The translations under genes were made by a program, and so were the position numbers. Shown one piece after another: positions 7,204 through 19,182 of a stretch of DNA of 21,243 nucleotides (positions are counted from its first letter, which is position 1; each line of letters begins with the position of its first letter). The DNA lies in IMG/VR virus record IMGVR_UViG_3300044815_000094, positions 1-21,243 of that record; one strand, given 5' to 3'. The notes beneath the pieces were generated by a model that made no database searches, was not told the origin of the DNA, and saw only the letters and a program-made list of their open reading frames with translations. The stretch comes from a virus.

Positions 7204-7343
7204 TTTTTCTTCTCACACCTTGTACACGGAAGTTTTTTATTCTGAAATAATTTCATTCCAGTATCAAGTTTTCCGACATAAGTGCGCTCATAAGTCCATA
7301 CATGACCGAATATAAAACATCGTAATTTATTCCATATTTTCAT
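7200..7343 (-). CDS. Tiny zinc-binding protein (DUF1660-like), second copy
   Basis: 47 residues from ATG at 7343, which overlaps the end of the upstream gene. MKIWNKLRCFIFGHVWTYER onward, ending LPCTRCEKKK. It shares the WN..., Cys, GH-aromatic and C-x-x-C pattern with 6914-7042. A longer frame to 7445 lies inside the upstream gene and is not needed. Function unknown; a single zinc site is likely. Confidence 0.6.
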   Translation of the reverse strand: MKIWNKLRCFIFGHVWTYERTYVGKLDTGMKLFQNKKLPCTRCEKKK

Positions 7344-7656
7344 CTTTGCATCCATCCTTAACCCATTGAATAGCTTTTTTATGGCCTTCTTCTGCTTCAA
7401 TCCATGTAGAATATCGTTCGCAATAAATATCGCTTCCTTCCGCATCGAAAATCATGGTTTCGAATAGCAATGGCTTTCCACCAAAGTAATTATGATCAAG
7501 TCCTAAAAATACGGTAGATATGTGTTTATCATCAATATCAATTGAATCAACGCGCCTTCTTTGTCTTCCGTAAGTCTCTTCATATAGCTTAGACCATTCC
7601 GTTAGTTCGCATGGAACAACATTATTATTATCATCTAAAGTGTAAAACATATTCAT
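7327..7656 (-). CDS. Conserved phage protein of unknown function
   Basis: 109 residues. The central motif STVFLGLDHNYFGGKPLLFE, then TMIFDAEGSD, and the C-terminal RYSTWIEAEEGHKKAI are the hallmarks of a widespread phage family without known function. The two ends match family layout, so it appears complete. ATGA overlap with the Tad2-like gene upstream in the operon. Confidence 0.8.
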   Translation of the reverse strand: MNMFYTLDDNNNVVPCELTEWSKLYEETYGRQRRRVDSIDIDDKHISTVFLGLDHNYFGGKPLLFETMIFDAEGSDIYCERYSTWIEAEEGHKKAIQWVKDGCKDENME

Positions 7657-8048
7657 TCAACCACCACCCAATCATCGGCCAATAAATCCTTAAATTCAGG
7701 AGAAAAACTAAATTCCTGCATATAGTGGTAAACAAGGTCTTTTTGTTCCTTGTCATAATAAATATACCATTCTCCCCATTCCTTTAGCCTAGCCTTAGAA
7801 CCATTGTATAATTTATCTACAATCTCATGAAAAAAATATTCTTTATCATCGCCTAAAATAAACCAACCATCGCACATAAATATTGAGCTGTCATAGGAGT
7901 AAATCCTTATTGTTGGCCTATATGCTCTCGATTTACCCGTAATCTTGTCGACAGACAGGTACATTCTGTCCGCCAAACCTTGCGCCCACTTGCTTCTTGC
8001 AACTCTTTTCCCAGTCTTAAGCTCTGTCATTGCTTCACTGAATTTCAT
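7653..8048 (-). CDS. Tad2/DUF2829-like protein (candidate anti-Thoeris), extended form
   Basis: 131 residues. The N-terminus MKFSEAMTELKTGKRVARSK followed by W, and the C-terminus DLLADDWVVVE, are the two conserved ends of the DUF2829 family (F..A...LK.GK...R..W and ..DW..VE). Phage Tad2 is a DUF2829 protein that sequesters the gcADPR signal of Thoeris immunity. Between the ends lie about 95 residues, longer than I expect in a roughly 90-residue Tad2, with many aromatics (WFILGDDKEYFFHEIVDKLY, EWGEWYIYY). Ligand binding is therefore uncertain. A second, shorter relative is at 18934-19182. Coupled by ATGA to its neighbours. Confidence 0.6.
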   Translation of the reverse strand: MKFSEAMTELKTGKRVARSKWAQGLADRMYLSVDKITGKSRAYRPTIRIYSYDSSIFMCDGWFILGDDKEYFFHEIVDKLYNGSKARLKEWGEWYIYYDKEQKDLVYHYMQEFSFSPEFKDLLADDWVVVE

Positions 8049-8260
8049 TTTAAATCCCTATCTCTATTAATCAAATTAGTCAATATTAAATCCATGTTGC
8101 CTTTTAGGTATTCTAGGGTCGTGTCTCTCAAGGCGTATATAAGCCCCTTGTTTATTAGTTTTGTTTTGTCTATCTGATTGTGTGTCATATATTCGTAAAT
8201 AAGACGCCCTAAAGCCAAGTATGCCTCTTCTAATTCCTCTTTTCTCGACAAGTCATCCAT
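8045..8260 (-). CDS. Small helical unknown protein
   Basis: 71 residues, predicted all helical: SRKEELEEAYLALGRLIYEY and a C-terminal helix ending TNLINRDRDLK. Its stop overlaps the start of the Tad2-like gene and its ATG touches the end of the membrane-protein gene. No known domain; function unknown. Confidence 0.6.
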   Translation of the reverse strand: MDDLSRKEELEEAYLALGRLIYEYMTHNQIDKTKLINKGLIYALRDTTLEYLKGNMDLILTNLINRDRDLK

Positions 8261-8508: not shown

Positions 8509-8577
8509 GTCACCCTGACGGAATCGAACCGCCATCGGTCACTAAAAAGCGACACTCTACCATTGAGCTAAGGGTGT
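8509..8577 (-). tRNA. Degenerate tRNA, anticodon uncertain (closest to Lys-UUU)
   Basis: Read on the minus strand, the D-arm region (TAGCTCAATGGTAGAG) and T-arm (GGCGGTTCGATTCCGTC) are canonical, and the acceptor pairs CACCCT with AGGGTG. The first acceptor pair is A-A. The anticodon stem GTCGC/GTGAC leaves only a 6-nt loop TTTTTA instead of 7, and base 26 appears missing. No CCA is encoded. Lys (UUU) is the nearest reading of the loop, but a functional anticodon is not assured. It lies inside the minus-strand operon. Confidence 0.65.
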
Positions 8578-8681: not shown

Positions 8682-9182
8682 TTAAAAAGGAACATCGTCA
8701 TCTAGCACATCTTCCCGAAACTTAGGAATTGGAACAATATTATCACTTGAAGATGAATTATCACGATTCAAATAATCATCAATCTTGTTCTTGTCTGGAT
8801 ATTTAGACCCTGCAGGCTTTCCGTTAAGCTTATCTATTGCAATTTCCTTACCATCTTCAAAAGAAACCTTAACCTTTACGCGTTTACCGATGACAGTTTC
8901 TGAGCAGAACTTCCCAGCTTCATATGTAGGGATAATGCCCGCAGACCCTGCGCAGTGTACAACTTTCCACATCATTGATTTAGTGAATACTAGGAAATCT
9001 CGCACTTCATGAGTCTTGCCATCTTCATCAAATACCGTCAAAACCATCGCCATCATTGGGTTCCCAGAGCTAGAAACCTTATCTTCTGATGCGCTTATAA
9101 TCGCATCATACTCACCTTCTTTTATCAGTTGAAAGCGCTCTGCCATGGCTTGCTCTTCCGTTAAAACTTCGTAATTTAACAT
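8682..9182 (-). CDS. Single-stranded DNA-binding-like protein (DUF669 type)
   Basis: 166 residues. Residues 20-115 look like an OB-fold domain (EGEYDAIISASEDKVSSSGN, a VFDEDGKTHEVRDFLVF strand pair, then TVIGKRVKVKVSFEDGKEIA). A low-complexity Ser/Asp linker follows, and the last six residues are DDDVPF, nearly the DDDIPF tip by which bacterial SSB recruits repair partners. I place it in the DUF669-type phage SSB group. It probably coats single-stranded DNA during replication and recombination. It lies 3 bp after the Sak4 ATPase gene, its usual partner. An AAGG ribosome site precedes the ATG. Confidence 0.8.
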   Translation of the reverse strand: MLNYEVLTEEQAMAERFQLIKEGEYDAIISASEDKVSSSGNPMMAMVLTVFDEDGKTHEVRDFLVFTKSMMWKVVHCAGSAGIIPTYEAGKFCSETVIGKRVKVKVSFEDGKEIAIDKLNGKPAGSKYPDKNKIDDYLNRDNSSSSDNIVPIPKFREDVLDDDVPF

Positions 9183-9185
9183 TCC

Positions 9186-10031
9186 TTATTCCCCTTTAAT
9201 TTTAGACTGCAAATAATCTATGCACTTCTGAATCGCATCACGCGGCATTTCTTCAAACCCTTCACTACTAGCCTTGTCTAACCATTTTTGATACATTTCT
9301 GGGGGTACTTTGATTAAGTCTATTAGTCTGTTAATTTCAACAACCTGTTCTTTTGAAGCCAACTCTTGTGCAACAGCGTCTCTTTCAAGCACATCACGAC
9401 CGTAACGTTTTGCTATTTCATCGTACGAAAATGGGAAGCTTTCGCCATCTGGAAACTGCTCTATACGAGATTTTTTAATTAATCCAATACGGTCTTTACC
9501 GCGCTTTTGTATTTCGAAAACAAGGTCAAAAAGGTAATCCAACTTTTTGTAACAATCAAACGTTTGACCTAATACTGCCAAATTCTTACCATACTCATTT
9601 TTGCTGTGTGACGTAATAATAACGTTCATATCAAGCCTAAACAGTAGGTTTAAAAGCTGCTTCATACGTTTATTAGCTTCACCGTAATGACGACCAAATT
9701 CGCTGCCAACTTTTGCTTCTGCTTTTTCAAGCAAATCGTTATACAGCAGTGTTAATGAATCTATTATTAACGTCTTATAATCGTGCTGCGTAGTTAGCAA
9801 CTCACGAACTTCGCCAATCATTTCGTCAAAATCTACGGTCATCAGAACCGCACCGTCTACTTTTTCAATTTGCCTTACATATTGCGGTTTGTTAGTAGAG
9901 CCTTCCGTATCAATGATATACGGCTTTGGAAACTGAATAGCTGCCATCGTTTTACCGACACCTGCAGAACCATAAAATAAACATTTAAGGCGCTGTTCAA
10001 TTGCCGATGGTTTCTTTGCTTTTAGAGCCAT
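9186..10031 (-). CDS. sak4: Sak4-type RecA-like recombination ATPase
   Basis: 281 residues. Walker A is GSAGVGKT at 21-28; the IIDTEGST segment (39-46) follows; Walker B is TLIIDSLT (87-94, Asp91); ITSHSKNEYG (139-148) fits a sensor or motif 3. This is the short RecA-core protein known in phages as Sak4, which helps single-strand annealing and works with a phage SSB. The C-terminal 70 residues are helical and more variable. The SSB-like gene lies directly downstream, matching the usual pair. The gene symbol reflects family assignment by motif, not a search. Ribosome site AGAGAGG before the ATG. Confidence 0.85.
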   Translation of the reverse strand: MALKAKKPSAIEQRLKCLFYGSAGVGKTMAAIQFPKPYIIDTEGSTNKPQYVRQIEKVDGAVLMTVDFDEMIGEVRELLTTQHDYKTLIIDSLTLLYNDLLEKAEAKVGSEFGRHYGEANKRMKQLLNLLFRLDMNVIITSHSKNEYGKNLAVLGQTFDCYKKLDYLFDLVFEIQKRGKDRIGLIKKSRIEQFPDGESFPFSYDEIAKRYGRDVLERDAVAQELASKEQVVEINRLIDLIKVPPEMYQKWLDKASSEGFEEMPRDAIQKCIDYLQSKIKGE

Positions 10032-18383: not shown

Positions 18384-18646
18384 TGAATGAAGAAATTTAT
18401 CCTCAAAGTGTAGACTTTGAATACACGATAAGATGTAGCGCACATAACTTTAAGCCTTATGTTTATTGCGAGTTGTGCAGTATTAGGTCGCAAATGCATA
18501 AACTAGAAGAGAAGATTATGTTTAGAGCAAATCACGCTATTTCTCAAGCATTCATTGCTTTAAATGACAACTATAAAGACTTGCAAATACATAAAAAGAT
18601 AATAGAAGAATTACAAATAGAGGTTAATTTACTTAAGGACAAATAA
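18380..18646 (+). CDS. Small coiled-coil protein with Cys/His
   Basis: 88 residues; ATGATG start overlaps the previous stop. CSAHNFKPYVYCELCSIRSQ (19-38) has C, H and C-x-x-C that could hold one zinc, followed by long helices (QMHKLEEKIMFRANHAISQA and DLQIHKKIIEELQIEVNLLK). The layout is the reverse of the gene before it (zinc first, coil second). Function unknown. Confidence 0.6.
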   Translation: MMNEEIYPQSVDFEYTIRCSAHNFKPYVYCELCSIRSQMHKLEEKIMFRANHAISQAFIALNDNYKDLQIHKKIIEELQIEVNLLKDK

Positions 18647-18906
18647 TGGCAATTCAATCAGAAATAACCCTGATAATGGACTTTACAGGACAAAATAATG
18701 ACGTAATACCACGCGTTGGAAGATTATATTGTCCTACGAGCACACTTGCAGAGGTAACCACGCTGGGTTTTCTGGATAATTATATTAAGAGCCAAAATAT
18801 TGCATTAGTACCCACCGATTTTATTGCGGCAGTTGGTTCAGATGGGAGTCAGTGGTACAAACCAGTTGTTATTAGCGGGTTGCATCAATTAGTTGTTTTA
18901 CCATAA
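18646..18906 (+). CDS. Small virion-type domain protein, relative of 218-1216 N-terminus
   Basis: 86 residues. PRVGRLYCPTSTLAEVTTLG, then FLDNYIKSQNIALVPTDFIA and a short beta end. This aligns with residues 18-60 of the 332-residue virion protein at 218 (P-x-I, T-S-S-T-I-A-E-I, G-Y-L-N, V-K-S, I-x-F) over about 45 residues. It is probably a compact beta domain that forms part of the virion surface. Overlaps the stop of the gene before it. Confidence 0.65.
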   Translation: MAIQSEITLIMDFTGQNNDVIPRVGRLYCPTSTLAEVTTLGFLDNYIKSQNIALVPTDFIAAVGSDGSQWYKPVVISGLHQLVVLP

Positions 18907-18933: not shown

Positions 18934-19182
18934 ATGTTATTTCAAGATGCATTATTAGAATTAAAAGCGGGCAAACCCATGAAGCGTACTAGCTGGGCAG
19001 ATAGCGAAGGTTATTTGATGCTTATGCCGGGCATGGACTATGTGTGGAAAGTATTAGGCAAGCCCACACCAAATGCTGGAAACTTTATCTTTTGTGTAGA
19101 TGATTTTTATGCAGAAGATTGGGTGGAATATACTGTACCTGTTGATGTTGAATGTGAAGTTTTAGACGCAATACCAGAATAA
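18934..19182 (+). CDS. Tad2/DUF2829-like protein (candidate anti-Thoeris)
   Basis: 82 residues. MLFQDALLELKAGKPMKRTS followed by W is the DUF2829 N-terminal motif; YLMLMPG follows in the usual second strand, and DDFYAEDWVEY fits the conserved end. Phage Tad2 of this family binds gcADPR and blocks Thoeris defence. The length is close to that of known members. The region normally rich in polar ligand contacts is short, and about 13 residues extend beyond the DW end, so activity is uncertain. AAGGAGCAACATAG ribosome site is good. It lies late, between virion genes, unlike the early copy at 7653. Confidence 0.65.
   Translation: MLFQDALLELKAGKPMKRTSWADSEGYLMLMPGMDYVWKVLGKPTPNAGNFIFCVDDFYAEDWVEYTVPVDVECEVLDAIPE

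Follow-up and report, generated by a model that had tools for sequence, protein, structure and literature searches.

Characterised Tad2 proteins are anti-Thoeris sponges with which phages capture bacterial alarm signals. They are homotetramers with ligand pockets between the protomers; identical chains assemble to form these pockets. Each chain (about 75-105 residues) carries one domain of the Pfam family PF11195 (Tad2-like, formerly DUF2829). The members with solved complexes bind signalling nucleotides (PDB 8smf, 8smg, 8kbj, 8kbk, 8wjd, 9eib; PMC12043709, PMC13299392). The closest described systems are Tad2 of the Bacillus phage SPO1 (gp34.65; PDB 8sme, 8smf, 8smg, 8wje), with one domain per 89-residue chain; ModTad2 of a Myroides odoratus prophage (PDB 8v3e, 9eib, complex with histidine-ADP-ribose, His-ADPR), also a single domain; and HgmTad2/AcrIIA7 and SptTad2 (PDB 8kbi-8kbm, 8wjd; complexes with cyclic dinucleotide and with cyclic ADP-ribose). 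The protein considered here is encoded at positions 7653-8048 of IMG/VR virus record IMGVR_UViG_3300044815_000094, an uncultured soil phage. "The window" refers to the whole stretch of this record that was analysed (21,243 bases, classed as linear). The one-domain-per-chain plan is not found in this protein: two complete, shortened Tad2 repeats stand in tandem within 131 residues, an architecture that is well supported. The gene and its repeats are as follows.

7653..8048, minus strand: tandem Tad2-like gene, 131 residues, two PF11195 repeats (open reading frame, Pfam, 43-row alignment, AlphaFold2 model)
7845..8048, minus strand: repeat 1, residues 1-68 (Pfam stretch 7890-8048)
7656..7844, minus strand: repeat 2, residues 69-131 (Pfam stretch 7659-7832)

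The whole protein matches PF11195 with E 5.5e-14 and 52.9 bits (cut-off 25). Family membership and Tad2-like ends, both proposed in the original prediction, are thus confirmed. When PF11195 is run over the genome, two matches are found inside the one frame, at 7890-8048 (profile positions 1-52 of 73) and 7659-7832 (profile positions 3-73); the double match is also found in about 20 whole related contigs. Repeat 1 begins with a helix bearing F3..A6...L10..G13 and R18..W21, is followed by strands and ends in IFMCDGWFI, the counterpart of LLADDWVV. Repeat 2 carries F73..I76...L80..G83 and L88..W91 at positions 70 residues further on and ends in FSPEFKDLLADDWVVVE. The family profile of repeat 1 scores 71.9 bits on repeat 1 of the window protein and 13.4 bits on repeat 2 (residues 73-129), and the family profile of repeat 2 likewise matches repeat 1. 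These cross-repeat scores were reached by none of 5000 shuffles in either direction. Profile-profile comparison (hhalign) aligns the two repeats with each other over 60 columns (probability 97.9) and each of them with canonical Tad2 (probability 97.3-97.5). In a domain tree, the repeat 1 sequences form one group (support 99/99) and the repeat 2 sequences another (87/82), so the fusion of the repeats looks, most simply, like one old event; the tree was built on few columns and its deeper forks are unsure.

The original prediction had described a single domain whose middle was enlarged by about 40 residues, rich in aromatics and possibly shaping a larger pocket. The figures hold: the protein is about 42 residues longer than SPO1 Tad2, and 15 of the 66 residues at 34-99 are aromatic versus 9 of 65 in the outer part. 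The single-domain interpretation does not. The apparent insertion arises because the start of repeat 1 and the end of repeat 2 were read as one domain; it is made up of the last part of repeat 1 followed by the first part of repeat 2, as the double Pfam match and the repeat profiles indicate. What lengthens the protein is a second Tad2 repeat, not a larger pocket, and the middle of each repeat is itself shorter than that of Tad2: about 25 residues between strands 2 and 4 of canonical Tad2 are absent from both. A single domain that has an enlarged middle and, with it, a larger pocket is hence scarcely credible. It would fit the length (131 versus 89 residues), the canonical look of both ends and the way in which solved Tad2 chains align to the model, skipping about half of it between the two ends. 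However, the skipped middle is made of the C-terminal part of one Tad2 repeat and the N-terminal part of another, and the repeat evidence already contradicts this explanation. Two other suggestions of the original prediction, a different ligand and another role of the fold, stay plausible, since the canonical loop signature is absent.

The AlphaFold2 monomer model (43-row alignment) has a mean predicted local distance difference test score of 92.4 and a predicted template modelling score of 0.74. Its elements follow one order twice over: helix, strand, strand, long strand, helix, strand. The top eight Foldseek matches against the PDB are all Tad2, with E values of only 0.02-0.06. The VIA aligner finds ten Tad2/AcrIIA7 entries with Z 8.5-9.6 and a root-mean-square deviation of 1.7-2.3 over 64-65 residues; the next row is unrelated (Z 4.6). 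The structural comparison with Tad2 that had been proposed thus gives the Tad2 protomer fold, as a confident prediction. The matched 64-65 residues are spread over residues 1 to 130/131 of the tandem model and, on the Tad2 chains, finish close to the C-terminus. The same phage encodes a second, single-domain member of the family:

18934..19182, plus strand: single-domain Tad2-like gene, 82 residues, late region 3' of terL (PF11195 E 1.6e-6, 28.9 bits, cut-off 25; Tad2 fold Z 8.9)

For this paralogue, the match also covers 64-66 residues but is confined to residues 1 to 66-68. Since the Tad2 match spans 1-131 in the tandem protein versus 1-67 in the paralogue, strand exchange is the simplest reading: the aligned ranges suggest that strands are swapped between the repeats to give a pair within one chain. 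One Tad2 unit would then consist of the first part of repeat 1 together with the last part of repeat 2, and the middle would be a second, permuted unit. The pieces of the first unit, with approximate limits drawn from the VIA spans, are the following.

7950..8048, minus strand: N-terminal part of repeat 1 (about residues 1-33), putative piece of the canonical-like unit (ten Tad2 entries)
7656..7751, minus strand: C-terminal part of repeat 2 (about residues 100-131), putative other piece of this unit (also matches ModTad2 TWTPSVSDILAEDWNIVE)

In BFVD, no match covers both units (TMq at most 0.41 among the matches listed), and such proteins may still exist.

The repeats are not equivalent. The invariant arginine (R18 of repeat 1) is lost in repeat 2 (L88). 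The C-terminal end of repeat 2 reads F.P...DLLADDW, near ModTad2 TWTPSVSDILAEDW, and that of repeat 1 has Y.Y and closes in DGW. With R18 kept in repeat 1 and DLLADDW kept in repeat 2, the unit built from the two outer parts would be the canonical-looking one. Six canonical proteins were used for comparison (SPO1 Tad2, phage N4 gp49, and proteins of a Vibrio, a Tenacibaculum, phage G and a Listeria phage). Most of them share a signature with three elements: GWNGK.M follows the first strand, KTA precedes the fourth, and W.PS..D.LA.DW is terminal. The first two elements are absent from the tandem repeats and the third is partial, only the final D.LA.DW being kept, in repeat 2; at WxPS the window protein has F for W and E for S. 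The missing stretch between strands 2 and 4 corresponds to the insertion site of the Tad2 proteins that bind cyclic dinucleotides (review PMC12043709). The equivalent loops have conserved residues specific to the tandem family: 44-45 (Q-P in the majority), Y50, Y52, E54, I56, P117 and F119. Given that both the canonical loop signature and the strand 2-4 stretch are lacking, the tandem protein cannot be assumed to bind glycocyclic ADP-ribose (gcADPR), His-ADPR or cyclic dinucleotides in the ways that have been published.

Compared with SPO1 Tad2, the tandem protein shares PF11195 and the fold (Z 8.9-9.5 over 65 residues), the helix F..A...L..G..R..W and the final D.LA.DW; it differs by its two shorter repeats per chain and by the lack of the GWNGK, KTA and WVPS loops. 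ModTad2 is the best PDB sequence match of the family profile (E 3.8e-5) and resembles the model closely (Z 9.1); unlike the tandem protein, it has a single domain, with a canonical final loop. HgmTad2/AcrIIA7 and SptTad2 have the same fold (Z 8.5-9.6); the insertion of cyclic-dinucleotide-binding Tad2 proteins is absent from both repeats of the tandem protein. The paralogue and its relatives belong to the same family and the same phage as the tandem protein. In contrast to it, they are encoded in the late region near terL, are nearly universal and have their own near-invariant motif WK ... NAGN.IF ... DW; the canonical GWNGK/KTA/WxPS signature is missing from the paralogue too. No match to the window protein was found in PADLOC or NCBIfam, and no description of a two-repeat Tad2 in the literature searched, which left out the primary Tad2 papers looked for. 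The PF11195/Tad2 family is already known; the two-repeat fused form appears to be a new variation on it.

Searches with the window protein by itself returned no relatives in phages, viral contigs or genomes. Only searches with the terL and Sak4 genes of this phage led to relatives: considerably more than 100 contigs, of which the largest measure about 31-40 kb. An iterated profile search of the frames of these relatives yielded 45 distinct tandem proteins, that of the window included. Of these, 42 were aligned with the window protein (23-43% identity), and all 43 aligned proteins match PF11195; the alignment is too variable for a pattern search. The tandem gene and its fusion are under purifying selection (ratio of nonsynonymous to synonymous substitution rates 0.03-0.17 in close pairs of tandem genes). 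The carriers are a group of uncultured podovirus-like soil phages; the nearest named phages reach at most 41% identity by terminase. The 34-kb contig JAHFOW010000001.1, binned in a metagenome-assembled genome of Planctomycetota, was found as a genome match of the single paralogue and carries both Tad2-like genes. As PF11195 is absent from the 293 other Planctomycetota genomes drawn, this contig, which resembles a phage of the group, is read as phage sequence and not as evidence for a host.

The neighbourhood of the tandem gene in the window includes the following genes.

8045..8260, minus strand: upstream operon gene (stop/start overlap with the tandem gene)
7327..7656, minus strand: downstream operon gene, 109 residues, function not assigned (overlaps the end of the tandem gene)
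8682..9182, minus strand: SSB-like gene (PHROGs 378 and 124 for the SSB-like/Sak4-like pair)
9186..10031, minus strand: gene for a Sak4-like single-stranded DNA annealing protein (the same PHROGs pair; synteny)

Four bases are shared with each of the two adjacent genes, the pattern of a translationally coupled operon. The SSB-like and Sak4-like genes (8682..10031), upstream in the same operon, anchor it in the early module. Of the 51 contigs that extend more than 3.5 kb beyond the 3' side of Sak4, 34 carry the tandem gene, always on the same strand and 0.5-2.6 kb away. The early-operon placement proposed initially is consistent with this position 3' of Sak4/SSB and with the overlap of both neighbours. 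A tRNA gene (8509-8577, minus strand; Rfam RF00005, 40 bits; anticodon loop unclear) lies two genes upstream of the tandem gene.

The early, fused Tad2-family protein may be a signal sponge with an altered pocket, a proposal given an even chance here; the sponge function is proposed because the characterised members bind signalling nucleotides. The two outer parts would form the canonical-like unit and the middle a second, degenerate one, so that one chain would be a built-in Tad2 pair. Two chains might then assemble into a counterpart of the Tad2 tetramer whose half-sites are of two different kinds. Acting early in infection, the protein would bind, and not cut, a host immune signal. As its loops are unlike those of the Tad2 proteins that bind gcADPR, His-ADPR or cyclic dinucleotides, the signal would probably be bound otherwise than in SPO1 Tad2 and could be a different nucleotide. 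Several points weigh against this proposal. The three signature elements are absent or degenerate in both repeats, the gene is missing from one third of the relatives in which the region is covered, and the strand exchange is based on the aligned ranges of one AlphaFold2 monomer model. Moreover, no Thoeris system or cyclic oligonucleotide-based antiphage signalling system (CBASS) of a host can be linked to the gene.

The loss of the canonical pocket loops from both repeats would also suit a protein that has kept the Tad2 fold and left nucleotide sponging, the fused scaffold binding a host or phage protein in early infection as an inhibitor, adaptor or regulator. The location among replication and recombination genes agrees with such a role, and small domains are often protein-binding scaffolds. 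This is a lesser possibility: the segments equivalent to the pocket loops are conserved (e.g. 44-45, 50, 52, 54, 117, 119), and every characterised member for which a complex has been solved binds a nucleotide. It is unlikely that the protein is a sponge for gcADPR or His-ADPR of the SPO1 Tad2 or ModTad2 type that differs only by its fusion, with other side chains maintaining the binding. The two-end unit superposes on both proteins (Z 8.8-9.5), and the end of repeat 2, FSPEFKDLLADDWVVVE, follows ModTad2 TWTPSVSDILAEDWNIVE; however, GWNGK and KTA are lacking and WxPS is changed at two positions. The altered-pocket sponge can be stated in a fuller form, held only tentatively. The protein would be a fused, strand-exchanged and diverged Tad2 pair whose asymmetric pocket sequesters an immune signal outside the known Tad2 ligands. 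Because the late Tad2-like gene is near-universal and has its own motif, the early sponge and the late one would deal with different signals or different stages. If this is true, each half-site of such a fused, diverged pair could evolve on its own, which would be an easy way to acquire a new signal specificity, and the altered loops would be a testable lead to an immune signal beyond the known set. Conservation in dozens of uncultured soil phages, together with the near-universal single-domain relative, indicates that the fold matters to these phages.

In 55 of 57 contigs, the single-domain gene lies on the 3' side of terL at a distance of at most 2.6 kb; a sponge-type gene (18934-19182) is unexpected as a core late gene. 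Two proteins predicted elsewhere in the window (18646-18906 and 218-1216, both plus strand) have a look-alike stretch (TSSTIAEIQVAGYLN and TSTLAEVTTLGFLDN, respectively), which suggests related virion proteins at two places.

Candidates for the same architecture in other phages were rejected. Phage N4 gp49 (160 residues) has a single PF11195 match, so the likeness is not shown. In Lactobacillus phage Lpa804, the family has expanded locally to four adjacent genes (82263-85337); their products of about 120 residues each start like Tad2 but have a different second half. These second halves do not match PF11195, so the likeness is not shown there either. In Vibrio phage 1F273_PE002, two adjacent overlapping genes (22011-22875) are annotated as Thoeris anti-defense; PF11195 confirms the second only.
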